A stretch of DNA of 34,813 nt from Saccharofermentans sp. (GCA_016292155.1 JAEFBC010000084.1:1-34813); one strand, 5' to 3'; positions 39 to 17,452 are shown, counted from the first letter of the stretch. The notes: generated from the letters alone by a model not told the origin. Numbers and translations are program-made.

Positions 39-1835
39 TCAGCCAATGAACTTCAGAGCCTCTATTGTCTTCTCGGCAGTCATATCAATATATTTATCAT
101 CAACGAAACGCTGCGAATAATCAAACAGGATCAGTTTTGCATCAGGCATGCTGTCAACGGCTTTCATGGATTCAGCCTGATTCCTGGGCTCGAGGATCAC
201 TGTCGGTGTATAACATTCAGGAAGCATCTCATAAAGCCTTACAGCAAGCTTCGGTTCATTCGAAAATTCAAGATACTGGTTGCTGAAGAGCTCAGGCTGA
301 ACTATTATCATGCCCTTGAACTCAGATTGTCTTTCAATTCCCGTGTAAAGGGCGATAACGCCTCCTATCTCATGTCCCCACAGATAGATGTTATTCATGT
401 CGATATCAGGGATATAGCGCATCTCATCTATAACTGCATAGAAATCCAGGACCTGCTTGAAATAGACATCCGAGAAAGTCTTATCGCCACTTCCGCCGGA
501 ACGGCTTATTATCTCTGATTCATGTGTATTCTTGATCTGCAAAGCAGCATAACCGTTCTCATTCAGGATGCGTACTACAGAAGAATACATTGAATAATCG
601 CTTCCGAACTTGCCGCGCATTACCACAGTCTTAAAGGGACCTGCTCCTTCAGGAAGGCTCAGTCTTGCTTTTACCGGACTGCCGTCTCTGTAGAATGTGA
701 TATCTTTAACTCTTTCATATTTCCTGCTTACAACAGGTACAGAAGTCTCATAATCAAAAGGAGCTTCGCGCTTTACGGGAGCATCAATGACAGCTTCGCT
801 TACGAGTTCGTCAATAATGCTCTGCTCGTGCTCAGCAGCCTTGGGATTAAGGACTGAAAAGCCTGATACGACTATCAATGCTGCAAGGCTCAATGCTACT
901 GCTTTATAGCTTGTCCTGGCAGGGTGCTTTAAGCTCATGAGTCTTCTTCTCATGGACTTATATCCTGACTTCATTCCGGTTGTCATGGAGAATCTGTAGG
1001 AAGAATCAGATTTCCTCTGCATCAGCAAAAGAAGATCTTCCGCATATCTGTCAGCAGAGCCGCTTCCGTATACTCTTACAACTTCCTCATCGCAGGCCAG
1101 CTCGCAGTCGCGTCCTGACAGGATAAATGCCGCCCAGATCAAAGGATTGTACCAGTTAAGCGCAAGCACAAGATGTCTTACGATGACCCATATAAAATCA
1201 CCGTGTTTATAGTGGCACGCTTCGTGGCAGACAGCATATTCGCTTAAAATTGCAGGGTCGGTGTCAACATAGATCTTATTGAAAAGAAGGAACGGCACTC
1301 CTCTGTGATTGATACCGTATACACCAAGTCCACTCCTGGGATCAGTTCCAATAAACTTTCTGTTGCGCCTGCAGAATACAACAAATCCAGTGTTATAGAC
1401 CGTCAGCAGAACGATCAGCACCGCTGCCACAGAGATATATACAACGTTGAGGATGAGACCGGTATTTACATGTGTTTTTGAGGGGACATTGGCTGCTGTG
1501 ATGCCGCTTGCAGCTTTCTCCGAAGTGACGGCCTGTTCGTCTGCCATCCCGAAAATCATGTCTGAAGCGTCATCTTTTTCGAAATCTTGGGAAGGCAGAA
1601 CATCATTGCTGTACACCTTCTCGTAGATCGCCTGCTCAACATTTGCAGGGATCAGGCTGCTTATCTCTTCCGTTACCGTGACATTGATCTTGATGAATGG
1701 TGAAGCAATCATGTAAAGAGGTATCAGAAGCCATAAAGCATACTGATACCTTCTGGGCATCCTTCCTGCGGCAAGACGCCTGATGAGCATTATGGCAATC
1801 GCTATGAGCGAGACACCGATAATGTAGCGCAGCAT
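39..1835 (-). CDS. BlaR1/MecR1-like M56 membrane metalloprotease with C-terminal alpha/beta-hydrolase-like domain
   Basis: N-terminal TM segments; zinc motif HEACH (HExxH) followed by DCELACDEEV; directly downstream of a BlaI-like gene; C-terminus has hydrolase-fold sequence with GHEIGG at the nucleophile elbow. Confidence 0.85.
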   Translation of the reverse strand: MLRYIIGVSLIAIAIMLIRRLAAGRMPRRYQYALWLLIPLYMIASPFIKINVTVTEEISSLIPANVEQAIYEKVYSNDVLPSQDFEKDDASDMIFGMADEQAVTSEKAASGITAANVPSKTHVNTGLILNVVYISVAAVLIVLLTVYNTGFVVFCRRNRKFIGTDPRSGLGVYGINHRGVPFLLFNKIYVDTDPAILSEYAVCHEACHYKHGDFIWVIVRHLVLALNWYNPLIWAAFILSGRDCELACDEEVVRVYGSGSADRYAEDLLLLMQRKSDSSYRFSMTTGMKSGYKSMRRRLMSLKHPARTSYKAVALSLAALIVVSGFSVLNPKAAEHEQSIIDELVSEAVIDAPVKREAPFDYETSVPVVSRKYERVKDITFYRDGSPVKARLSLPEGAGPFKTVVMRGKFGSDYSMYSSVVRILNENGYAALQIKNTHESEIISRSGGSGDKTFSDVYFKQVLDFYAVIDEMRYIPDIDMNNIYLWGHEIGGVIALYTGIERQSEFKGMIIVQPELFSNQYLEFSNEPKLAVRLYEMLPECYTPTVILEPRNQAESMKAVDSMPDAKLILFDYSQRFVDDKYIDMTAEKTIEALKFIG

Positions 1836-4267: not shown

Positions 4268-5047
4268 TTAGAGCGTCTTGAAAATGGAATACTCAGCCCA
4301 GCTGTACTGGGCCATATATTCACCCTTATAGGAATTGACCATTGTTGAGTCGCCTTCAAGATACTTGAACAGGTCGCACTCAATGCACTTCGGGTTTACG
4401 GCAATCTGGCCTCTCTGTCTGATGACCGCATCCTCCGAACCCAGCTCTAGCAAAGTATTAACAAGATCCTGCTTGAGTTTCTTCAAGTAGTCCTGACGGT
4501 CAGTACCGAAATCATCGTCTTCCCAGATGACTGCAATGATCTCACTATTGGTGCACATGGCACCTCTTCTGTCGATGAGGTACGCAAGGAGCTCCTTGGT
4601 CTTCTTATATCTGAACTTGATCGGTTCACCGTGGCTGTAAACTTCAAAATTACCGAATGTAACTGCCTTCAACCTTCCTTCTTCAAAGACGTTGCCGTAT
4701 CTTAAGGTCTCTAAAGCCTTCTTGACCTTCTCGGCCGTTACGGGCTTCATGATGTAGGCTGATGCGAAAATAGAAAATGCCTCACCGGTATAATCGCCGT
4801 AACCTGTAACAAATACGATATTTACCTTCGGATTGATGGCCTGGATCTTCTTTGCCAGTTCAATACCGTTGACATCCCTCATTTCGATGTCGAGGAAAGC
4901 AATATCACAGCCGTTCCTGCCGACGAAGACTTCAGCATCAGTCGTTCTCCTGAATGCGTTGACAGTCTCATTCGGAAGGTTCTCTTTTATGCAGGAAACC
5001 AGAGCTTCCAACGATAATTTCTCATCATCTACAGCTATGATATTCAT
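4268..5047 (-). CDS. Response regulator: REC domain plus SARP/OmpR-like winged-helix output domain
   Basis: IIAVDDEKLS, AFLDIEM (phospho-Asp), KPVTAEKV; C-terminus VTFGNFEVYSHGEPIKFRYKKTKELLAYLIDRRGA resembles SARP/AfsR-type DNA-binding domains. Confidence 0.85.
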   Translation of the reverse strand: MNIIAVDDEKLSLEALVSCIKENLPNETVNAFRRTTDAEVFVGRNGCDIAFLDIEMRDVNGIELAKKIQAINPKVNIVFVTGYGDYTGEAFSIFASAYIMKPVTAEKVKKALETLRYGNVFEEGRLKAVTFGNFEVYSHGEPIKFRYKKTKELLAYLIDRRGAMCTNSEIIAVIWEDDDFGTDRQDYLKKLKQDLVNTLLELGSEDAVIRQRGQIAVNPKCIECDLFKYLEGDSTMVNSYKGEYMAQYSWAEYSIFKTL

Positions 5048-5061
5048 AAAGCGTGTCTCCC

Positions 5062-6474
5062 TTAGTCTTTGGATGCGGCTTCATCACCGTCATCGTCATC
5101 ATCAGGCTTAACGTTGCTCTTCTCACCGGGGAGCTTCGGGATCGTAATAACTGCTGTCGTTCCCTTGCCCTTAGATGAGAACAATTCTAATTTTCCGTTT
5201 ACTCTCTTCTCGATCCTGACCCTTACATTCTCGATACCGATATGTGATCTGCCGTCATCAGCAGGCTTCTTCTTTGTATCAAAACCTACACCGTTATCAA
5301 TAACGTAGACATAGTGATTATCGTAGTCTTCGACCGTGCGGATAATTAGCTTGCCGCCCTTGGAGCTCTTTGCGATACCGTGCTTGACGGCATTTTCTGC
5401 CAGAGGCTGGACCACGAGCATGGGGATGTGAAAATCCGTAGGTCCTATGTCATATTCTATTTCGAGCTCATCATCGAAGCGGAGCTTCTCAAGATCAAGA
5501 TAGTTCTTAACGTGTTCAAGTTCTTTGCTGAACGGAGCCAGCTCGTCGGAAACGAGCGAATCGATGTTGGTCCTTAAATAGCTTGAGAAATTGTCTATTG
5601 CCGTCTGGGCAAGCTTTGTATCCTTTGCGCAGAGATAATAGATGATGTTTAAAACGTTAAACACGAAATGCGGCTGCATCTGTGTGATTACCATGTTGAG
5701 CTGGAGATTCTCGATCTCCTCCTTCTTCTCGGCGATTACCTTATTCTGGTTCAAAAGCACCATATTCTGCTGGAGCACTTTCTTATTAAGTTCCGACTCC
5801 ATGATGGTGATCTTAACATTATTGACGATGAAGATGATAATGAGCGAGATGGCCATTCCTATATTGGTAAGATTAATGCCGGGTTTAAGAACTACCTGAA
5901 GGAGAACCATGATGAATGGTATCGTTATATAGAGCAGCAGGCTGATAATCTGCTTGATCAGGAGCCTTTTCGCGCAGACAACGATCTGGGCAATAACGAG
6001 TGCATATAAGATGACTATCAGGTAGATAGCAAAATTATAATACGGCATTCTCTGATAAACGTTCTGGTCATCGATCAGGTAGTACCAGTGCGTATATTTT
6101 GCGGAGATAATGCATGTCAGAGCGCACCCTGCAGCAAAGCAGTAAGTGAAGTTAGCAATAACATTCGATACCTTCCCCGCTCTGGAAAGATATTTTATAT
6201 AACCTACGAAAAGCGCAACCATCAGATACTGCAGGATCATCATGGTAGCCATAGATCCGTGGAATACGATCTTTGCCCATGGCTCATTTACGTTCTGGCT
6301 GATTACAACGCCTACGTCAAACGTCAGTGCCGCAGCAGCAACGAACTGCATTATGCACATGACGGAATCCGCTCTGTTATTGATCTTTGTTACCAGGAAA
6401 AAATATATTCCGATGCCGGAACATATAAGGATTCCCCAGATCTCAAAAGCTGCCAGTAAGTTCTCAATTGCCAT
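5062..6474 (-). CDS. LytS/YehU-type sensor histidine kinase (His_kinase PF06580 type)
   Basis: N-terminal multi-TM region; QMQPHFVFNVLNIIYYL; VVQPLAENAVKHG; NGVGFD; HIGIENVRVRI; start overlaps the sortase stop. Confidence 0.9.
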   Translation of the reverse strand: MAIENLLAAFEIWGILICSGIGIYFFLVTKINNRADSVMCIMQFVAAAALTFDVGVVISQNVNEPWAKIVFHGSMATMMILQYLMVALFVGYIKYLSRAGKVSNVIANFTYCFAAGCALTCIISAKYTHWYYLIDDQNVYQRMPYYNFAIYLIVILYALVIAQIVVCAKRLLIKQIISLLLYITIPFIMVLLQVVLKPGINLTNIGMAISLIIIFIVNNVKITIMESELNKKVLQQNMVLLNQNKVIAEKKEEIENLQLNMVITQMQPHFVFNVLNIIYYLCAKDTKLAQTAIDNFSSYLRTNIDSLVSDELAPFSKELEHVKNYLDLEKLRFDDELEIEYDIGPTDFHIPMLVVQPLAENAVKHGIAKSSKGGKLIIRTVEDYDNHYVYVIDNGVGFDTKKKPADDGRSHIGIENVRVRIEKRVNGKLELFSSKGKGTTAVITIPKLPGEKSNVKPDDDDDGDEAASKD

Positions 6475-7891
6475 TGCCCGTACCTTCCGGTCTGCGCATC
6501 TGCGCTACTTCTTCAGGTGTCAAAATTCTTATATCTCTATAAACAAAGCATATAACATCAATTATAAACATAAAAGCACTAATTGCGACCATTAACGGTG
6601 TGTACTTATCGCACATGACCACAGGAGTCGTCATATCCTCTGTCAGGAAGAATGAGAGAACGGATGAGACCAGTATAAAGATCTCAATAGCAGTACCGGT
6701 ATTTACCCTTAAGCGGAAGCGCTTAAGCTTATCCTTTAACTTGTCACCATACTTGATTATCGCCATGGCATCAGCGCCGCTGTAACCGTAGCCGGAATAA
6801 AGATCCCTGATCTTCTTTGCTGCCCTGCTCTGCCTGAACTTGATCCTGGTCTTTGTAAGAGGCAGTACTACAACGATGCAGTAGATAACGCAGACGAGAT
6901 TTAAGAATGCCCAGTTATCGGATCCGAAGGGATGGCCGATAGCGGTGAGTTTGTCGATAACAGAAGGAGTCTGTGGAGTATTACCGCCGTTACCTCCATT
7001 CTCACCGCCGCCATTATTGTTAAAGCCGGGTAGGTCTTTAGCGTCAACGGGGGTAGCCTTAAAGAAAACAACGATTCGTCCGTTGGTAATCGCGGATTCA
7101 CATGTCGAGAGCGCGAGGACCAGCGCGGGATCACCGGACTTCTGGAGATCATCAAGGGCCTTTACGCCCTCCTTCTCAAAGCGTTCCAGTGCCTCCCTGT
7201 CAGAATCGGTCAGGATTTTATAGTATTCGGAATTTGAAAGTATATAGTTGATCCTCTCTTTGATCTTGAGAGCATCTTTATCGTAGACATTTTTATTGTA
7301 GGCATCTGTCATCATGACAGCGAAAACATCGAGTTTGTAATAACGGCCGTTGGCATAGAGCCAGCCCGTTTTATGCGAATCGAAATATTCCTTATCCTTA
7401 TACTTTTCGAGGTCACCGAACATCGCACCATTATCCATGTGGTGACCGAAGATAACGTTGTACGGGTCGCTGAAATCATCAGCATTGACCGTCATAAGAT
7501 AGATGGCGCCGGTAATGCTCGTATTGCCGTAGATGTCCTTGGAAGCGTATTCCAGGTCATCCTCGCCCTGTACTACCGGGTAATCGATATTGGTATTGTG
7601 GATCGTAAGCCAGCCTGTGGCATCCTCATTGACTTCCTTAAGTCTAGTAAAGCTGTCCTCATCGTAGTCAGTGCCGCTTCCGTCGCCGTTGCGCTTGCCG
7701 GAATTCTCATCAACTGTCACCGGCAGAGGCTTATACTGCTTGAGTTCATAAGATGAGAATGCGTGCTGGTTGATATAGAACGTGTCATAAAGAGAATATG
7801 CAGCAAACATTATTATGATCACGGCAACAACGGCTACGATAGCTCTCATAACCGTCTCTATGATCTTAACTATGCTGCATACAGTTTTCAT
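6464..7891 (-). CDS. Class B sortase with Gly/Asn-rich linker and C-terminal membrane domain
   Basis: TGWLTIHNTNIDYPVVQ, IFGHHMDNGAMFGDL, ALSTCES, NGRIVV; then GFNNNGGGENGGNGGN linker and about three TM helices. Confidence 0.9.
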   Translation of the reverse strand: MKTVCSIVKIIETVMRAIVAVVAVIIIMFAAYSLYDTFYINQHAFSSYELKQYKPLPVTVDENSGKRNGDGSGTDYDEDSFTRLKEVNEDATGWLTIHNTNIDYPVVQGEDDLEYASKDIYGNTSITGAIYLMTVNADDFSDPYNVIFGHHMDNGAMFGDLEKYKDKEYFDSHKTGWLYANGRYYKLDVFAVMMTDAYNKNVYDKDALKIKERINYILSNSEYYKILTDSDREALERFEKEGVKALDDLQKSGDPALVLALSTCESAITNGRIVVFFKATPVDAKDLPGFNNNGGGENGGNGGNTPQTPSVIDKLTAIGHPFGSDNWAFLNLVCVIYCIVVVLPLTKTRIKFRQSRAAKKIRDLYSGYGYSGADAMAIIKYGDKLKDKLKRFRLRVNTGTAIEIFILVSSVLSFFLTEDMTTPVVMCDKYTPLMVAISAFMFIIDVICFVYRDIRILTPEEVAQMRRPEGTGNGN

Positions 7892-7915: not shown

Positions 7916-8494
7916 TTACAGGTTATTACGCCTTATGATCGTAACTACCGAGCCCTTGATCTCTTTTGCCTTAACCATGCCGTAGTAACGGCTGTCCTCT
8001 CCGCCCTCTCGCTTATCCACAAGGATGAAATACTCACCTTCAGGTACTGTCTGCGGGTATTCCTCATAGCCTTCATAGCGGGGCGTTGTGTAGAAGATCT
8101 TAGGTTCATTTACGGCGTTGCCGTTAACGATAAGGGTAGCATCATCAGTGATATCAACAGTATCACCGCCGGCAGCTATAACTCTGCCCAGATAGATCGT
8201 GTCGTTCTTGTTGATGACGACTACCTCATTGATATCGAACTTTCTGTCAAATCTGAAATAAAGGAGAAGATCGCCGTAATCGACTCTCGGGGACATATCA
8301 TTCGACGGAGCCTTCATGATTCCGAAAACGACGCCCAGCATGAGCCATACGAGTATTATGATTATCAGAATACTCAAAAGCGAAAAGTGAAGGGATCTCA
8401 TCTGGGACTTTGCCTTGCCGATCGTCTTCTGCGTACCGGCTGCTGCAGCATTCTCCTCATTTCTCTTCTCAATTGGATTAATTTCTTCACTCAT
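7916..8494 (-). CDS. Signal peptidase I-like protein lacking the Ser/Lys dyad (SipA-like pilus assembly factor)
   Basis: S26 framework PSNDMSPRVDYGDLLLY, IYLGRVIAAGGD, YGMVKAKEIKGSV; Ser position is Asp, Lys position is Gly; ATG 8494 with AGAGGT SD. Confidence 0.88.
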   Translation of the reverse strand: MSEEINPIEKRNEENAAAAGTQKTIGKAKSQMRSLHFSLLSILIIIILVWLMLGVVFGIMKAPSNDMSPRVDYGDLLLYFRFDRKFDINEVVVINKNDTIYLGRVIAAGGDTVDITDDATLIVNGNAVNEPKIFYTTPRYEGYEEYPQTVPEGEYFILVDKREGGEDSRYYGMVKAKEIKGSVVTIIRRNNL

Positions 8495-8534
8495 ATGGCT
8501 ACCTCTTACAGCTCCCCATTGGATTTTTAAAGAA

Positions 8535-8564
8535 GGTACGGATGCTTTAAAGAGCATCCGCACC
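8535..8564 (-). terminator. Intercistronic hairpin between pilin and sipA-like gene
   Basis: GGUGCGGAUGCU-CUUUAA-AGCAUCCGUACC on the minus RNA: 12-bp stem including one G-U pair; followed by UUCUUUAAAAA. Confidence 0.55.
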
Positions 8565-8612: not shown

Positions 8613-9818
8613 TCAAGCCTGCTCCTCTTTTCTCTTTGTTGTGCTGATTACCATGAATCCGATACCGAATCCTAAGAGGATTACGAACGGAAGCACTGCC
8701 ATTGCTACACCTGTAGGTGAGATGAGAACGTAAGTATTTGTGAATTCAACTGTCTTATCCTCACCTGCTTCACCCTTTGTTGTAGTAACTGTAACAGCAT
8801 CTGTCGTAGCATCAGGCTCAAGAACTGCGTTTGCAAGATTTGTCTGAGCACCAGTTGTTGTGACATAGTAGATCTTACCTGTTACATTGTTCTTCTCAGA
8901 GATACCGACTGTTGTTCCACAAGGGATACCGGTATATGTAACGGAAGCATTGTGCTTGATAGCTGCTGTAAGGCTGTCTGCCATATCTGTAGCAGTTCCG
9001 TCAACATCAAGCTTAAAGGAACCAGTAAATGCAGCAGGCTTCTCAAAAGTTACTGTAAACGGGAATGCGTTATCTTCATTAGCTGTGTCGTTTTCGAGCT
9101 TCTTGCTTACTGTTACGTTATATGTATAGTAAGAATCGGCGTCGATTGTTGTAGATCCGCTTGTCGTCTCAACAAAACCCTGTGTCTTAACAACACTCTC
9201 AAGATTGTTGCCTGAATCAGATCCGTTGATATCGCTGTCATTGACGAACAAAACATAACCATAGATTATGAATTCGCCTGCCTGATCACCGTCTCTGACA
9301 TATACATCGAGATAACGGATAACGTCATCAGCAGAACCAATTACGCCTGCAGCTTCTTTGCCTGAACACTGCTCTGTAATTTTATAACGATAGACACCTG
9401 CACCGGGGAATTCAACAGTTGCAAAATCAATCTCAATATCCTGAGTATTTGATTTACCAGCTGCAGCAGCATCTACAAGACTAGCACTGCTCCAGGAAAG
9501 ACTTCCGGTAATAGTCGGTGAACCCACGCCTGCTTTGGTTAATGTCTTTACACCATCTGCATCCGTAATCTCCTTGCCAGCAGAAGATGCGGCAATTGAA
9601 TATGTATAGGTGACGTTCGGACCATAGACCTTTTCAGCTGACGGATTGTAAACCTTAAGTTCTTTCTTAATTACCAGAGTGGTAGTAAGAGTAGATGTTT
9701 TGCTACCTGTTACACCACCGGACGGTAATGTCTCGTCAGCCAGTGCGGTCATACCCAGCATGGCGACCATAGCTGTGGCAACTAAGATGCTTGCCACTTT
9801 TCTTAATATGCGTTTCAT
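8613..9818 (-). CDS. FctA/Spy0128-like sortase-anchored major pilin
   Basis: Signal peptide; isopeptide-type K (VTVSKKLEND), E (VGISEKN), N (VEFTNTY) in second domain; C-terminal ISPTG, hydrophobic stretch, KRKEEQA. Confidence 0.9.
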   Translation of the reverse strand: MKRILRKVASILVATAMVAMLGMTALADETLPSGGVTGSKTSTLTTTLVIKKELKVYNPSAEKVYGPNVTYTYSIAASSAGKEITDADGVKTLTKAGVGSPTITGSLSWSSASLVDAAAAGKSNTQDIEIDFATVEFPGAGVYRYKITEQCSGKEAAGVIGSADDVIRYLDVYVRDGDQAGEFIIYGYVLFVNDSDINGSDSGNNLESVVKTQGFVETTSGSTTIDADSYYTYNVTVSKKLENDTANEDNAFPFTVTFEKPAAFTGSFKLDVDGTATDMADSLTAAIKHNASVTYTGIPCGTTVGISEKNNVTGKIYYVTTTGAQTNLANAVLEPDATTDAVTVTTTKGEAGEDKTVEFTNTYVLISPTGVAMAVLPFVILLGFGIGFMVISTTKRKEEQA

Positions 9819-9889: not shown

Positions 9890-9923
9890 TTTATACCATT
9901 AGGTTAGGGACAGAAATGGGACA
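9890..9923 (-). promoter_or_regulatory. Pilin promoter with direct repeat TGTCCC-ATTTC-TGTCCC, 11-nt gap, -10 TATAAA
   Basis: Repeats at 9923-9918 and 9912-9907; -10 at 9895-9890; same architecture as at 17419-17452. Confidence 0.65.
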
Positions 9924-9958
9924 CTTCGGGCCTTTCCGGCCTTATACCGAAAAGTGTC
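9920..9958 (-). repeat. Stem-loop directly after the adhesin stop codon
   Basis: GACACUU(UU)CGG...CCGAAGUGUC with inner GGCC-GGAAA-GGCC; no U-run; distal arm overlaps the upstream TGTCCC repeat. Confidence 0.5.
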
Positions 9959-9963
9959 ACATT

Positions 9964-12900
9964 TTATTCATCGTTTGTACTTTTATCCTGCCCCCCTTTC
10001 CTCTTGCGCTCTTTCTGTACAACGGCTCCTGCGAAGCATGTTGAAGACAGGATCAGCATGATCATGAAGCTCATGCTGTTGTCCTTAACAGCCGTAGGTG
10101 CCACGAGCGGAAGTACTTCCTGTGTATTCGTGAATGTAATCGTAAGGTTTTCATTTGCTTCTACAAAACCTGTTGAATTGCCTGTGCCGCTAATCGAGAG
10201 TGTTTCATCGGGATTAGTAACTACGTAAGAAATCTCATAATCTGATTCCTCATCAGCTTCTTCTGTGACACTAACGCTCATTCCCTTATGAACGGTAAAG
10301 ACTATGCTGTCAGTTCCGTTATCCGCGGGTGATAAAGTAAATGTGGCAATACCATCAGAACCGGTAACGATATCATCAGAAGTATCAGCAGTTCCCTTAT
10401 CGCTCAATGTGTAGTTAGCTACTGCAGAGCCCTTATCCTTCAGCTGCAAAGTGAATGTGAAAGTACCGCCGGTGCCGACAACGTTCTTAACTACTGTGAC
10501 ATCGACCTTTTCTCTTGTGTTCATAAAGAGAACATATTTATCAGAATCAGCATCAAGATTTACAACTGTTCCATCTGTTGCTGTTCCCAAGCTGCTTGCG
10601 TCAGTACCGGTCTTATAGGATGTTATGTAACCTGGTTCAACGTTTTCTTCGATCTTTACTTTCGCGTTTTTCGGAACATACAGCAAAGCTGTCTGGTTGT
10701 TTGCAAGAGTGAACTGAAGCACACCCTGTTCATTTGTGCCCTGAGATCCGTGAACATTAGACAACTGGATCGGATCACCGTTGCTGTCAGTAAGGGTCAA
10801 CGTGAAGAGGAAGCTGTTGATACCGTAATCGTTATAGATCTCTTTCTTAACGGTAACGCGCATCATCTTCGGATTAACGACTTTGATAATGTAAGTAGAA
10901 CTACTGTCTTCGTATTCCACTTCTACTGTATCAGCATCACTGCCCGTTGTTACGCTAACTCCGGCCCCATTGATATCTACTGTTGCGGGAGCCTGGAGCT
11001 TTGTATATCGAACGCCGTCATGGTCATACACTTCTGTTTCAGTAAGAATATACTGACCTGCATATGCCTCACCTTCCCAGACAAGTCCTGTACCCTCAGC
11101 AGAGAACTTCTTCCCGTCGAAAACACCGGGGAATGTGAAGTTTGCACTATCCAGAGGATTGCCTTCGTCATCTACTACAACGAGACGAATGTTCTGTGTC
11201 TTCAGTGCATTGGTAAATGTAACTGTCGTATCATCTGTTACAACAAACGAGAATACATTACCTTCCTGGTTAAGATCAGTAACAGGCGAAGAGTCTGCAG
11301 CTCTTATTCCTGCAGCCGATGTATCGAACCGGTTGCTGTCAACGTTCTCGGTAATAGTAAGCACAGCACCTGTAGGAATGCCTTCGATCTTCCACTCACC
11401 GCCGTGCTCAGCATCTGCATCGTTTACGATGTAATTACTTGCAGGATCAAGCACATAACTCTCACCGTTCTCCAGTGCGACGTTAAACTCGAAGTTCTCA
11501 GAATTTAATGTCTCAGGGAGCAACTTCTTTTTGATAGTAACATCAGCAGTCTTGCGGGTATTGGTAAATACAACCGTACCGCCGGTTCTGTCGATTGTCC
11601 ATTTTATCTCATTATTAGGATCCGTAATGCCTTCAGGAGTGATCTTAAAGTCCTGATTATATAAGCCTACGATTTCAGTGCTGGCAATATAATCGCTATC
11701 TTCTGTCTCCGTAACTGTTACGCTTGTTAAAGCAACATCGTTATAACCATTATTATTATTGTTTTGCCAGCCGACATATACTACTGATCCTGCAGTTGTT
11801 CCATCAGCATTATATTTACGTACCGCAACTCTCAATGTTGCTCTGTTTCCGGAACCGCCGTTATTACGTTCCATACTGATAGTAAGATACTGGCCATGAG
11901 AAAGGGTAAAGTTTTCATTTTTGTCTACTTGCGAGTAACTGGAGGATGAGTATCTCCTATACTGACCCTGTATTCTTACATTAAATGTAAATGTCTTGGA
12001 TCCAGACTGATCTCCGGGCGCAGGAACTTCCTTATAAACCTTTACGACGCCTTCCTGATCGTTAGAACCCCAAACAGCATATAAGTGTTTAATGTCCGTA
12101 GGATCTCCATTTTCATTCTTGAAGAGATCATCTAATACAAGATTCTGATCCATAGAACCATTGCCTGAGATAGGATACTTAGGTGTAGTATCTGTAGGGT
12201 TCTCACCCCAGCCCTTGAATACTCGTCCGACACGGACACGTGTCTCTGTTAAGTGATATGTGGTCTCACTTATGTCAAATGACTTCTCCCATGTCGCATC
12301 TATAGGATCGTTATCATGAAGTACCAAAGTCCTTGGCATCTGCATTGCAGAGAATGTAACTACAACAGGACGGCCCTGAGTATCTTCATAGAGCTGGTCA
12401 GTAATCGAATAACTCATAGTATTCTTGATATCACTGACTATTTCGGGATCTTCATCGCTGGAACGTCCTGCATAAGTGCTGGAAACACTCATTACCCAAC
12501 CATAACCAAGAGTATTCGTACCATTGATCGTAAAGTCTTTGCCTGCACCATAAGGCATGACCAGACGTGTAGTTCCGGGTTGGATTACCACATTATTAGG
12601 ATTTACAGGTGTTCTGGAGAAAGAACCATCCGCCTGATTAACTATATAAAGAGCATTTCCGCTGGTTGATGTAATCGAAATTGTAAGCGCCTGATTTGTT
12701 GTATTTACGAGGTCAAGGTATACCATAGGTTCCCATACCGCATAAAGTGTATGAGTCTCGCCAGGAGTTACTGCTACGACTGAATCGGCAGGATAATCCG
12801 GAACAAAGTCTGTATCATAGGCATCCTTGTCAAAGCCAAGCAGCTTATAACCAGCTGGATGAGTAAAGAACTTTACACCTGCCGGATCAAGTGTCTCTCC

Positions 12901-15900
12901 GGTTGTTTCATTCTGAGTAAGTGTTGTTGAGTACTTATATAGATGTACTGAAGTATTGGACTGTGCGTCACCAAATACTATTGATTTATTTTCTGTATCA
13001 AGATAAGAACGGCCAGGCCATGTCCATTCAGGTAATTCTCCGGCAGCACTGTACAGAGTGCCGTATGCTGTTCCCATAGCATCCCTGCCGGCATTCAAAG
13101 TCAGGTTAACAACATCAGGTCTTCTGTAAGCTTCAGAACGTTTTTCGTATACAGCCTGCATGTGTATAACCATGTTCTCATCTGAGTATCTGGCCTTTAC
13201 CGTGAGTTCCTGACCTGCTGTGTAGTACACACCGGGTTCCAGAGGAGTATAACGGGGTCTGCCTGCAACAGTCACGACCTTAACGATCTGCCAGCCGCGG
13301 AACTGGTAATCAACATAATCAGAATCCGTTGAGGTCTTACCATTTACCCTTATGGATGTAGGCTCCTGCATTGCCTGTGTAGACGCACCGTCTGAGTATT
13401 TCGAATGTCCGTCCAAAGGATCAGTCCAGTCTTCAAGATTTGCTGTGATGTAGTCATTGTTATCAGCATAGAACTCGGTTGTATAAAGGATGCTGTAGCC
13501 GCCTTCCAAACGCCATTCAGCGATTAATGTAGTCTCACTGTCAGCGGGCTTTGAAAAATCAAACGGAGTATTCTGACGGACACCATCTACCACTTCATAC
13601 CAAGCAAGGAATACATAGGACTCGCCGCTTCTGAGCTCACGGTATTTCTCTGTTGATACATAAGTAGCTTCCCACTGAGCACGCGGCAGAGGAACCAATT
13701 GAGGATCCCTTTCCTGTCGTGCTACTACTTCATGAACATAATACTGATAGAAAATATTCAATGATTGAGGCGTATCTTTGATATAAACTGCTGTTCGGCC
13801 GGCAGCACTGATCTTTCCTTCGCCGCCTTCAAGATTCGATTTGTAAATATAGACATATCGGTATACAGACTCAGGATCCATCTGAGCTGCTTCAATATCA
13901 CTTATTTCGACATATTTGCGCTTCATATTTTCATAGCGCTCAATAGTCTGTGTTGCTTCATTGTCAAAGTATGTAGCGTAATTATTTTTCTCAGTCTCAG
14001 GAGGAAGACCAACAATTCCCAGCTGTTCTGACGTAAACCAGTCATATTCAATGGAGTTGATCACACCACCATTAGGATTAATGTTGATCGGATAAGAGAC
14101 CAAAGACCACTTAGCGTAAATAACTTTATTTGCGGCAGGCATTGTTTCGTTAGCAAAATCAAACGGTACAGAACCGGCTGCATCTTCGTACCAGCCATCA
14201 AAGTAGTAATTGGAATTGGGCGCTGCAGGAGCTTCTGTTCCACTGTAAGACGCAAGGCTCTTCTCGTACGGGATATTGCCATAAACCTGTGCGGCAGGAG
14301 CACTTCCTGCAAGTGAAGGCGGATAGTTAGGAGAAAAAGTCAGTTCGCTGGTTTTTCTTGAATAATAGAATTCGGCTACACGTGTTCCGCCTGAGACTCT
14401 TTCGCCCTCACCAAAGCCAGTATAAGCAGGTGCATTCTGCTGACCAATTTCCTGGTTGCTGGAACGCGCAGTAAAACTGTCTGCCAAGTAATAAGTCTTG
14501 TTGTTCCTGGTAACTAAATCCAGTCCGGAATAATCTACACCATCGAGAGTTTCCCAGTAGATTTTGTATGTCCAGTCATAAGGTATGCTGGTTCTGTAAC
14601 TGGCAATAAGGAAGTTTCCATCAGGTGAATCAGTATAACCAAGGATCTTTTCATCCATAGTTGAAACTACACCCTTTACAGTATCGTTTTGTCCAGGACT
14701 GCCATATAAGCCGGCATTAGCCATCATCCACCAGCCGGATAAATATCTGTTGTTATTAGGAAACTTTGAATATTCCGGCCAAGCACTTGAGATATCAAAA
14801 CCATAATTTGCAGTTATAACGTAGAAATAATAACGGTAGCCGTTATAATCTGCATAACTGATCTTGCCTGCATCATATGTACAGAGAGATGACAACTGTG
14901 ATATTCCGGAATCGTCCCAATTTATACCTGAACCAGCCGTACAATAAGATTGCCAGGTAATCGTATTTGGAGGAGTAAATCTGTTGCTTAATGTAGGAAC
15001 CCTGAAGTATCCTGTCTCAGTTCCGTTATTAGCTAACTGACGTCTTGCAAAGATAAACTTCAAATTATAGGTAATACGGTCATAGTAAACATTGATAACC
15101 GTACCGCCCTGAGGATCAATGGTTCCGAGGTTTTCACTGCGGCTATATTGGAAACCGGTGTAATTCATGCCAAGCAGATTGAGATTGCTTACATTTACAG
15201 TTTGATTATTGTCATTAACATAAGAACCGGAGTAATTTCGCAATACTGCTTCTGTTACCGGATTTGCGGTATTCCAATCCTCATCGAAATAGTAAGTCTC
15301 AAAATCGTATTTCTTATTTGCATCTGAAATACCGGCTTCATCTGTAACCTTCTGCTTCCAGATTACGACCTTATATTGCGCCGTAATATTCGGAATCCAT
15401 TTAGCATAGAGAGTCTTGCTGTCAAGCTCATCATAAGCGTAGATCTTGCCATTTGATACCTTGAAACCAGCCTCGTTAATAGAGGCCTCTGTTCTGACTG
15501 TTCCTTCAGCATTAGTGACTTGAACGCCGGCACCGTCAGCTTCGGTATACCAGCCTCCAAATATGAAGCCGTTTCTGGTTGTCGTAGGCAAAGAAGTCAA
15601 AGCATACTCATCACCTTCAGCATCATCGCTGGTGAAGATTAGCTGAGGCTTTACGAACAATGCACCATTTCCGCTGGGACCGATATTGAAATTGATATAA
15701 CGGGCCTGAACAAAGTGCGGATAAAGATCGATAGTCTCTGCACCTGCTGTGAGATATGTGCCGTCCTTGCCCGGCTGAATGATCTCTTCGTTATTGGAAT
15801 CGATAGTTCTGATAAGCTCCCAATTAGGATTCTGTGCTGTTCCGGTATTTCTCTCCCAACCGATGAATACAACGTGTACGGGATCGCTGCTTGGAGACTG

Positions 15901-17376
15901 TATATCACTTACCTTTACTTCAGTCTGATGGCTGCTTCCAAGAACGATGAGCTTACGTGAAAGAAGTGTCTCGCCTGTAGTCGAGTCATAAGATCCGAGA
16001 TGGAAGTTAACGAAGTAATAGTTGCTGTAGATAGGCGCGAGATATACATGAGCGCATCCTTCAGAATCGACATCGGTACATGTGCCGGAAGCATTGCCTA
16101 CAGTCCACTTGATGGATGTGATTGTAGAGCCTGATTTAACTGAGCTGACAGTTACATCCTTATCGAGTTCGATACGGATAGGATCTGTTAACGGCCAGCT
16201 GTATTTAATTGTGCCGCCATATGTCTTACTGGAATTATTAAAGGTAACCGAATCCTCAGACATATCGACTGTATACCATCCGTAGAAGTATGTGTTCTGG
16301 GTATTCATCGGCGCTTCGATTGATTCGAGCTTATCGCCGTCACGGACGATCATGGAGACCTGCTTATTGCCTGCCTGAGGATCGGTTGCCTTGTTGGTAA
16401 AAGTATAAGGAGCAGATGTGTATTCATCGCCATTAGGCTGATAGTCTTCTTCAACTGGTGCGATGAAGTGGAACTGGACACGGGGAGTAACAACTTCTCC
16501 TCCCTCATGCTCAATGATGACATAAACGCTGAAGTGACCGGCTTCAAATTCAACCTTACCGTTTTTGACCTCAGCGTCAATTTTTTCGATTTTCTTGTTC
16601 TTGATGTCGACCGGCTTGCCACTCTCTGCGAGCTCGTCAGGAACATAAATGACTTCGGCTTCATTTTTTGTAACACTGTTACATTCGTCTGATGCAACCT
16701 CGATCTTGAGGGGCTCAGCGGGCTGCCATTCGTTGCCGTCTTTGTCGAAAACCTTGATATCATAGGCTGCTATAACCTTTGCACCGCTTACTTTGACCTC
16801 TACGCGCTCTGCAGTTACTCTTACGTCTTCCGGTAAGAGGCCTGTTACATAAATATCAGCGCCCTCTGCCTTGATCTTGCGCTCTTTAAGCTCAACATCA
16901 GTCTTGGAGGGCTCTGTTTCTACTGTCGTTGTTTCAGAAGGCTCTGTCTCTGCTGGTTCTGTTGCCTTCTCTGTTTCAACAGGTTCTGTCTCTTCTGTAT
17001 TTGATTCAGTGGGCTCTGTTGCCTCGGCTGTAGTTTCTGTTGTCTCTGTAGTCTCTGCTGTATTCTCCGGTTCTGTCGCAGCCGTTGTTTCTGAAGTTGT
17101 CTCTGCGGGTTCTTCCTTGGCTTCTGTATCGGTGGGTTTTGTTACCTCGGGAGCTTTTGTCTCTTTTGGCTCTGTCGCCTTCGGTTCAGCCTTGGGAGCC
17201 TCGCTCTCGGCCGAAGGTGTTTCCTCACCTTCGACCTCATCAGCGAATACGGTTTTTATGGAACCAAAGAACTGGCCGGCTTTGTCATAAGCCAGAACGA
17301 TGGACGCGGTCATAGCAGCAACCAGGATGATTGCGATGGCCTTTTTGAGTAATAAGCGGATGTCTATGCGCTTCAT
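9964..17376 (-). CDS. Giant cell-surface pilus tip/adhesin-like protein
   Basis: ATG 17376 after GAGGA; signal peptide; T/E/P-rich stalk; multiple InlB-B/Flg_new-like GWY...YAKW repeats; tandem Spy0128/Cna-B-like domains near C-terminus; end LPLVAPTAVKDN-hydrophobic-KERKRK. Confidence 0.9.
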   Translation of the reverse strand: MKRIDIRLLLKKAIAIILVAAMTASIVLAYDKAGQFFGSIKTVFADEVEGEETPSAESEAPKAEPKATEPKETKAPEVTKPTDTEAKEEPAETTSETTAATEPENTAETTETTETTAEATEPTESNTEETEPVETEKATEPAETEPSETTTVETEPSKTDVELKERKIKAEGADIYVTGLLPEDVRVTAERVEVKVSGAKVIAAYDIKVFDKDGNEWQPAEPLKIEVASDECNSVTKNEAEVIYVPDELAESGKPVDIKNKKIEKIDAEVKNGKVEFEAGHFSVYVIIEHEGGEVVTPRVQFHFIAPVEEDYQPNGDEYTSAPYTFTNKATDPQAGNKQVSMIVRDGDKLESIEAPMNTQNTYFYGWYTVDMSEDSVTFNNSSKTYGGTIKYSWPLTDPIRIELDKDVTVSSVKSGSTITSIKWTVGNASGTCTDVDSEGCAHVYLAPIYSNYYFVNFHLGSYDSTTGETLLSRKLIVLGSSHQTEVKVSDIQSPSSDPVHVVFIGWERNTGTAQNPNWELIRTIDSNNEEIIQPGKDGTYLTAGAETIDLYPHFVQARYINFNIGPSGNGALFVKPQLIFTSDDAEGDEYALTSLPTTTRNGFIFGGWYTEADGAGVQVTNAEGTVRTEASINEAGFKVSNGKIYAYDELDSKTLYAKWIPNITAQYKVVIWKQKVTDEAGISDANKKYDFETYYFDEDWNTANPVTEAVLRNYSGSYVNDNNQTVNVSNLNLLGMNYTGFQYSRSENLGTIDPQGGTVINVYYDRITYNLKFIFARRQLANNGTETGYFRVPTLSNRFTPPNTITWQSYCTAGSGINWDDSGISQLSSLCTYDAGKISYADYNGYRYYFYVITANYGFDISSAWPEYSKFPNNNRYLSGWWMMANAGLYGSPGQNDTVKGVVSTMDEKILGYTDSPDGNFLIASYRTSIPYDWTYKIYWETLDGVDYSGLDLVTRNNKTYYLADSFTARSSNQEIGQQNAPAYTGFGEGERVSGGTRVAEFYYSRKTSELTFSPNYPPSLAGSAPAAQVYGNIPYEKSLASYSGTEAPAAPNSNYYFDGWYEDAAGSVPFDFANETMPAANKVIYAKWSLVSYPININPNGGVINSIEYDWFTSEQLGIVGLPPETEKNNYATYFDNEATQTIERYENMKRKYVEISDIEAAQMDPESVYRYVYIYKSNLEGGEGKISAAGRTAVYIKDTPQSLNIFYQYYVHEVVARQERDPQLVPLPRAQWEATYVSTEKYRELRSGESYVFLAWYEVVDGVRQNTPFDFSKPADSETTLIAEWRLEGGYSILYTTEFYADNNDYITANLEDWTDPLDGHSKYSDGASTQAMQEPTSIRVNGKTSTDSDYVDYQFRGWQIVKVVTVAGRPRYTPLEPGVYYTAGQELTVKARYSDENMVIHMQAVYEKRSEAYRRPDVVNLTLNAGRDAMGTAYGTLYSAAGELPEWTWPGRSYLDTENKSIVFGDAQSNTSVHLYKYSTTLTQNETTGETLDPAGVKFFTHPAGYKLLGFDKDAYDTDFVPDYPADSVVAVTPGETHTLYAVWEPMVYLDLVNTTNQALTISITSTSGNALYIVNQADGSFSRTPVNPNNVVIQPGTTRLVMPYGAGKDFTINGTNTLGYGWVMSVSSTYAGRSSDEDPEIVSDIKNTMSYSITDQLYEDTQGRPVVVTFSAMQMPRTLVLHDNDPIDATWEKSFDISETTYHLTETRVRVGRVFKGWGENPTDTTPKYPISGNGSMDQNLVLDDLFKNENGDPTDIKHLYAVWGSNDQEGVVKVYKEVPAPGDQSGSKTFTFNVRIQGQYRRYSSSSYSQVDKNENFTLSHGQYLTISMERNNGGSGNRATLRVAVRKYNADGTTAGSVVYVGWQNNNNNGYNDVALTSVTVTETEDSDYIASTEIVGLYNQDFKITPEGITDPNNEIKWTIDRTGGTVVFTNTRKTADVTIKKKLLPETLNSENFEFNVALENGESYVLDPASNYIVNDADAEHGGEWKIEGIPTGAVLTITENVDSNRFDTSAAGIRAADSSPVTDLNQEGNVFSFVVTDDTTVTFTNALKTQNIRLVVVDDEGNPLDSANFTFPGVFDGKKFSAEGTGLVWEGEAYAGQYILTETEVYDHDGVRYTKLQAPATVDINGAGVSVTTGSDADTVEVEYEDSSSTYIIKVVNPKMMRVTVKKEIYNDYGINSFLFTLTLTDSNGDPIQLSNVHGSQGTNEQGVLQFTLANNQTALLYVPKNAKVKIEENVEPGYITSYKTGTDASSLGTATDGTVVNLDADSDKYVLFMNTREKVDVTVVKNVVGTGGTFTFTLQLKDKGSAVANYTLSDKGTADTSDDIVTGSDGIATFTLSPADNGTDSIVFTVHKGMSVSVTEEADEESDYEISYVVTNPDETLSISGTGNSTGFVEANENLTITFTNTQEVLPLVAPTAVKDNSMSFMIMLILSSTCFAGAVVQKERKRKGGQDKSTNDE
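16900..17235 (-). repeat. Low-complexity T/E/P-rich stalk-encoding region of the adhesin
   Basis: Translation PKATEPKETKAPEVTKPTDTEAKEEPAETTSETTAATEPENTAETTETTETT... Confidence 0.8.
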
Positions 17377-17418
17377 AATCATGTCCTCATTACATAATTT
17401 GCCCAGTCTTACAATCCG

Positions 17419-17452
17419 ATGATAGCAAAGCACTAGGGACAGAAAGGGGACA
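17419..17452 (-). promoter_or_regulatory. Adhesin/operon promoter with direct repeat TGTCCC-CTTTC-TGTCCC, 11-nt gap, -10 TATCAT
   Basis: Repeats at 17452-17447 and 17441-17436; -10 at 17424-17419; no good -35 hexamer; about 40 nt upstream of ATG 17376. Confidence 0.65.

Follow-up and report, generated by a model that had tools for sequence, protein, structure and literature searches.

Two 17-bp direct repeats located upstream of a giant adhesin gene and of a pilin gene in a Saccharofermentans genome are very probably the operators of a response regulator encoded in the same locus (positions 4268 to 5047), which would form a two-component system with the adjacent histidine kinase (5062 to 6474). 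We propose that two phosphorylated regulator molecules sitting on the half-sites replace the -35 element by acting through sigma, thus activating the adhesin gene, the pilin gene, and a putative intergenic RNA. From the sequence we infer binding, phosphorylation, and activation rather than repression, as well as the points where transcription starts and the RNA itself, with its function. Coordinates refer to the window, i.e., the whole stretch of 34,813 nucleotides that was analysed.

Promoter architecture of the pilus locus

The locus reads on the minus strand in the order adhesin, pilin, signal peptidase I, sortase, kinase, and regulator, and this order is kept in the related genomes that were fetched (MAGs from rumen and gut, under the labels Saccharofermentans, Clostridiales, or Ruminococcaceae). 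The adhesin gene (9964 to 17376, minus strand) encodes a protein with a signal peptide, InlB-type B repeats, and a C-terminal sorting-type tail; its start is probably at 17376, which gives ~2,470 amino acids. The pilin gene (8613 to 9818, minus strand; 401 amino acids) ends in LISPTGV, a hydrophobic stretch, and a basic tail. It is followed by the signal peptidase I gene (7916 to 8563, minus strand), in a SipA-like position within the locus, and by the gene of a class B sortase with a C-terminal FILTED domain (6464 to 7891, minus strand; sortase_srtB E = 7.8e-45, FILTED E = 2.3e-12). The LytS-type histidine kinase (5062 to 6474, minus strand; His_kinase PF06580 and HATPase_c) has a conserved adjacency to the response regulator (4268 to 5047, minus strand), the putative binder of both operators, which comprises a receiver (residues 1 to 112), a SARP-like winged helix, and a truncated BTA-like C-terminus. 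With a sorting-tailed pilin and adhesin, a pilus sortase, and a SipA-like peptidase, the region is predicted to be a sortase-assembled pilus locus. The FCT pilus loci of Group A Streptococcus (SrtB Spy0129, SipA) likewise bring together an adhesin, a pilin, a SipA-like peptidase, and a class B sortase; FCT loci are regulated by stand-alone regulators, whereas the Saccharofermentans locus has a kinase and a SARP-like regulator of its own at the end. The tails of the pilin (8613 to 8700) and of the adhesin (9964 to 10100), both on the minus strand, carry a (S/T/A)PT(G/A)V-type sorting motif, not LPXTG, with the FILTED-bearing class B sortase nearby. Elsewhere in the window, a BlaR1-like membrane metallopeptidase (39 to 1835, minus strand) lies beside a BlaI repressor, and its C-terminal half appears by eye to be alpha/beta-hydrolase-like and not a penicillin-binding sensor.

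The adhesin operator (17436 to 17452, minus strand) is made of TGTCCC (17452 to 17447), the 5-bp spacer CTTTC, and a second TGTCCC (17441 to 17436). Eleven nucleotides past the second repeat comes the hexamer of an extended -10 element (17419 to 17427, minus strand), TGC followed by TATCAT (17424 to 17419), with no -35, so that 17452 to 17419 reads TGTCCC CTTTC TGTCCC TAGTGCTTTGC TATCAT. The pilin operator (9907 to 9923, minus strand) has TGTCCC (9923 to 9918), ATTTC, and TGTCCC (9912 to 9907), with an extended -10 (9890 to 9898, minus strand) of TGG and TATAAA (9895 to 9890), and 9923 to 9890 reads TGTCCC ATTTC TGTCCC TAACCTAATGG TATAAA. Both strings are exactly as claimed in the original prediction, which described a TGTCCC-N5-TGTCCC-N11-(-10) arrangement with a repeat period of 11 bp and a gap of 11 nt to the -10 at both promoters. 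It had also noted the lack of a clear -35, and we found instead an extended -10 TGn in most of 25 aligned sites of the genus (T in 22/25, G in 20/25). The -10 starts with TA in all 25, and the spacer preference is N(T/A)TTC; the near-invariance of the hexamers in this alignment is a product of how the sites were found.

These two sites are the sole matches to the pattern in the window, even allowing two mismatches. The genome-wide search for the repeat that had been proposed with the prediction returned just the same two exact copies in the 2.4-Mb assembly (77% complete), rather than many random ones, against a chance expectation of ~0.2 and a reversed-pattern control of 0. The significance of the sites lies in both being perfect, in both standing at promoters of one locus, and in both being conserved in relatives. 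Between adhesin and pilin, an inverted repeat GACACTT...AAGTGTC (9920 to 9958, minus strand) overlaps the first pilin TGTCCC with its 3' arm; its arms are kept in 12/13 genomes around a variable loop, and it may be an mRNA stem-loop or an extra half-site.

Conservation of the repeats and co-occurrence with the regulator

In 13 genomes of the genus, the pilin site is without mismatch, a conservation that supports the earlier proposal that the pilin gene would have its own promoter. Among 11 adhesin promoters, 7 are perfect and 4 carry one mismatch, all distances being kept. Spacers and flanks differ among the adhesin, pilin, and RNA promoters, while the hexamers, the 11-bp period, and the N11 gap are constant. 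Allowing up to two mismatches, the 13 genomes contain the adhesin, pilin, and RNA sites only, and matches with three mismatches occur at about the level of the reversed control.

In the family, the perfect pattern and the pilin site were found in 12/12 genomes having an orthologue of the REC-wHTH regulator at 80% identity or more, compared with a perfect site followed by TA at N11 in 3 of the 103 remaining genomes, the three including G083, a pilus fragment in the form of a contig with the pilin promoter. The association is strong (Fisher p = 7e-14, ancestry ignored), and part of it reflects shared ancestry, since the adhesin and pilin operators are linked to the regulator gene. Scanning 188 genomes of the order gave TGTCCC-N5-TGTCCC-N11-TA 26 times in 15 genomes and the reversed pattern 4 times. 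Moreover, a Lachnospiraceae MAG whose regulator is 61% identical (L139) has a homologous pilus locus with two TGTCCC operators, one before the pilin gene and one before the signal peptidase gene.

When the -10 was dropped from the pattern, unrelated matches appeared in the family, mostly TGTCCCCAAATTGTCCC and similar sequences, none of them with a -10 at N11. TGTCCCCAAATTGTCCC recurs in many family genomes, e.g., G098:C8:13390, G105:C41:3421, and G109:C4:16315.

A putative small RNA as proposed third target

A perfect site unlinked to the pilus locus was found in four genomes, flanked on one side by a methyltransferase gene and on the other by a gene that is convergent or has a promoter of its own. 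The source genome (C203:893) has TGTCCC-CTTTT-TGTCTC-N11-TATAAT, one change from perfect, and G073 also has the site; six genomes in all, source genome included, carry this promoter with the operator layout. In the alignment, the sequence from the operator through a strong terminator-like hairpin aligns, and the sequence 5' of the operator does not. The predicted transcript is intergenic and ~110 nt long (L102:893-1037 on source contig C203; L057, L059, L061, L064, and L269), with a C-rich hairpin loop (ACCUCCC...), given by UACCUCCC(AUAACCCCC), and the terminator-like hairpin; promoter and hairpin are conserved in the 6 genomes, and the putative RNA folds better than shuffled sequences (z of -4.5 to -4.8).

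Reading the third site as the leader of a protein-coding gene was rejected for most genomes: the gene that follows is either convergent or served by a separate promoter, and a hairpin terminator stands between it and the site. The putative RNA contains no reading frame of note, its search against Rfam gave no match, and no compensatory pair changes were seen in it. A crude RNAduplex screen against the start regions of the fetched loci yielded no target, adhesin and pilin not being preferred (ranks 7 to 22). In G033 and G054, the methyltransferase neighbour is present and the RNA absent. The small RNA is a candidate third member of the regulon. In L057, L061, L064, and L059, a pair of genes judged by eye to be LuxE-like and LuxC-like (acyl-protein synthetase and acyl-CoA reductase) lies 3' of the RNA locus.

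A SARP-like response regulator

The receiver matches Response_reg (E = 1.2e-17), D53, T81, and K101 are invariant in 42 members, as is D7 and nearly so D8, and the kinase gene is adjacent, all of which identify a response regulator. For the DNA-binding region, the best hit of a PDB profile search was AfsR (8hvr, E = 0.0015), with EmbR further down, and Trans_reg_C scored 19.7 bits against a cut-off of 26.2. A model of this region (pLDDT 87.5, pTM 0.85) has three short helices in its C-terminal part; in a fold search it retrieved AfsR and EmbR as the six best matches (TMq 0.67 to 0.75), OmpR-type domains reaching ~0.5. The full-length model resembles OmpR types, whereas the DNA-binding region fits AfsR/EmbR better. 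A full BTA domain (7 helices, ~150 amino acids) is absent, only ~40 residues following the winged helix, and 0/42 members match Pfam BTAD at E ≤ 1.

SARPs act as dimers on their repeats, with activation by way of sigma region 4. Their target promoters have direct repeats with an 11-bp spacing just upstream of the -10 (PMC10936776), and such repeats are present at both promoters. The original prediction of a SARP-type regulator thus stood for the DNA-binding region, for which AfsR and EmbR are the closest in both profile and fold, and for the repeats in the AfsR register, but not for the protein as a whole: because the BTA part is truncated to ~40 residues and matches no Pfam BTAD, the regulator is, as judged from sequence and structural model, SARP-like and not a full SARP.

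Comparison with known regulators places it accordingly. OmpR/PhoB regulators (PhoB, PhoP, and KdpE) share the receiver and the winged helix, and many of them also use direct repeats near 11 bp overlapping the -35; compared with them, the Saccharofermentans regulator adds a conserved C-terminal GEYMxQYSWxE tail. REC-wHTH-BTAD two-component regulators (COG3947) share the receiver and the SARP-like winged helix, the BTA domain being truncated in our protein. EmbR of Mycobacterium tuberculosis shares the fold of the DNA-binding region and the start of the BTA domain (TMq 0.74 to 0.75) but has a full BTA domain and an FHA domain and no receiver. AfsR, a Streptomyces SARP acting at the afs box of the afsS promoter (PMC10936776), shares the OmpR-like winged helix and a pair of direct repeats, spaced by 11 bp, in place of the -35; it has C-terminal NOD-TPR domains, whereas the Saccharofermentans regulator has a receiver in front, and the half-site TGTCCC does not occur in the AfsR paper (PMC10936776). 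AfsR-type SARPs act on antibiotics in Streptomyces, in contrast to a regulator from Bacillota that would act on a sortase-assembled pilus and a putative RNA.

Fixed geometry and changing hexamers in distant relatives

We sampled the loci of 70 distant relatives of the regulator (42 to 61% identity) from Lachnospiraceae, Erysipelotrichaceae, Oscillospiraceae, and Treponema, a site being defined as two identical hexamers with a period of 11, followed after 11 nt by a TATAAT-like box, on the coding strand. This combination of period and gap gave 19 matches, the mean of the other combinations being 1.7. Fourteen of these matches lie within 500 bp of the regulator gene, which is 18.6 times the density of distant sequence, and other periods gave 0 to 2. 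In a class-wide set of held-out loci, the period-11 row reached 12, with mostly 0 to 2 in the off-period cells. Across the distant relatives as a whole (36 to 63% identity), this geometry is kept and the hexamers change, to TGTGTC, TGTGAC, TGCAAC, TGTTGC, TGTCAC, TGCCTA, and others; many relatives (e.g., L142, L143, and L146) had no site by the rule used. In two Lachnospiraceae loci (L140:6337 and L141:9641), a TGTGTC-type operator lies ~330 bp 5' of the regulator gene itself, which suggests that these regulators are autoregulated.

The recognition helix of the source regulator is DYLKKLKQDL. Among the relatives, residue 2 of the variable pair of this helix tracks bases 3 and 4 of the half-site: K or H goes with TGTC, S with TGC, N with TGTG or TGTT, and Q or M with TGTT. 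A near-minimal pair is given by two regulators that are 78% identical, L154 (helix AYLRSLRKDL, operator TGCAAC-GGTTC-TGCAAC) and L209 (helix AYLRKLRKDL, TGTCAC-GGTTC-TGTCAC at a promoter homologous to that of L154), in which both half-sites changed jointly; the second-set entry L210 duplicates the L154 protein and was excluded as an independent case. The relation between helix and hexamer was never reached in 20,000 shuffles of a plain permutation. On supported branches of the receiver-domain tree, all comparisons agree (p = 0.5), a test that cannot reach significance with only two independent pairs per trait.

In our reading of the profile alignment, the variable pair falls on AfsR R87 and T88. 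In the AfsR complex, T88 contacts base 5, R92 touches base 3, and T-38/T-27, which are base 3 of each repeat, are essential (PMC10936776). The relation found here is with bases 3 and 4 and not with base 5, and the position of R92 is an Asp; on this alignment, the agreement with AfsR is by region, not for every contact.

Discussion

The proposed model is as follows. The LytS-type kinase and the SARP-like regulator would constitute a two-component system in which two molecules of phosphorylated regulator bind side by side on one face of the DNA, at half-sites one helical turn apart. With the -10 at -12 to -7, these half-sites would lie at about -40 to -35 and -29 to -24, and their starts would match those of the AfsR repeats (-40 to -30 and -29 to -19; PMC10936776). 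The regulator would then contact sigma as AfsR does, standing in for the missing -35, and turn on a pair of extended -10 promoters: that of the giant adhesin, and that of the pilin, which would also serve the signal peptidase and the sortase and probably the kinase and the regulator downstream. Adhesin and pilin would thus be raised together from separate promoters, and a third target, the short intergenic putative small RNA, would be activated elsewhere in the genome. The assignment of the repeats to this regulator, already put forward in the original prediction, has several lines of support: the repeats and the regulator co-occur in genomes of the family, these genomes have a third site away from the locus, distant relatives of the regulator have repeats of this geometry nearby, and the hexamers track a helix residue.

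It is unlikely that the same regulator is instead a repressor, or an activator only when phosphorylated and a repressor otherwise, that covers the -35 region. The sites do overlap the -35 region, a common location for repressors, and the promoters have decent extended -10 elements. However, every site is without a -35 and keeps a strict 11-nt phase to the -10, as expected of an activator touching sigma, and a repressor does not need such fixed phasing; moreover, AfsR, the closest relative with a solved structure, is an activator in this register. Binding by another transcription factor, e.g., the BlaI-type repressor encoded at 1837 to 2265 or an unlinked global regulator, is very improbable. 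BlaI is encoded inside the window and the site assignment is drawn from sequence, but only G000 and G079 have BlaI linked to the locus, whereas the sites occur in all 12 genomes, and in other families a change of hexamer goes with a change in the response regulator's recognition helix; BlaI was rejected as the binding protein because it is unlinked in relatives. Still harder to believe is that the hexamers form the upstream element of an alternative-sigma promoter class, for which the fixed distance to the -10 could speak, since this would account neither for two identical hexamers one helical turn apart, nor for a hexamer drift coupled to the linked regulator, nor for an ordinary TATAAT with an extended -10 TGn. 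Chance repeats or a low-complexity artefact, a reading with a negligible probability that could draw on the two-mismatch count in the window alone (no excess over shuffles, uninformative, and superseded by the genome and order scans), are refuted by the comparative data: 13 genomes keep the sites at homologous promoters, a third, unlinked locus has one as well, and reversed-pattern controls are near zero.

Beyond activation of this locus by its own regulator, we lean towards the view, held with somewhat more belief than doubt, that a class-wide family of truncated-SARP two-component systems in Bacillota uses one rigid operator grammar (a hexamer, an 11-bp period, 11 nt to an extended -10, and no -35), and that specificity evolves through one or two residues of the recognition helix together with a swap of both half-sites. 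In the same view, the regulon in the genus would be exactly the adhesin, the pilin, and the small RNA with a C-rich loop, which could couple the expression of surface fibres to the translation of other genes.

Direct-repeat operators of SARPs are already known. In the open literature, we found no paper on operators of REC-SARP regulators in Bacillota and nothing on SARP control of sortase pili. What appears to be new is the assignment of such operators to SARP-like two-component regulators of Bacillota, with their tie to sortase pili and a putative RNA, as well as the series of drifting hexamers in a fixed geometry.

Our study offers a rare and testable definition, straight from sequence, of a regulon for the sortase pili of uncultured rumen bacteria. 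It also provides natural regulator/operator pairs in which the geometry is fixed and the letters change, including the near-minimal pair (S to K in the helix; both half-sites from TGCAAC to TGTCAC). SARP-type recognition has been detailed for few proteins, and these pairs would let its rules be measured directly and could serve to predict operators for many as yet unstudied two-component systems of gut Bacillota.
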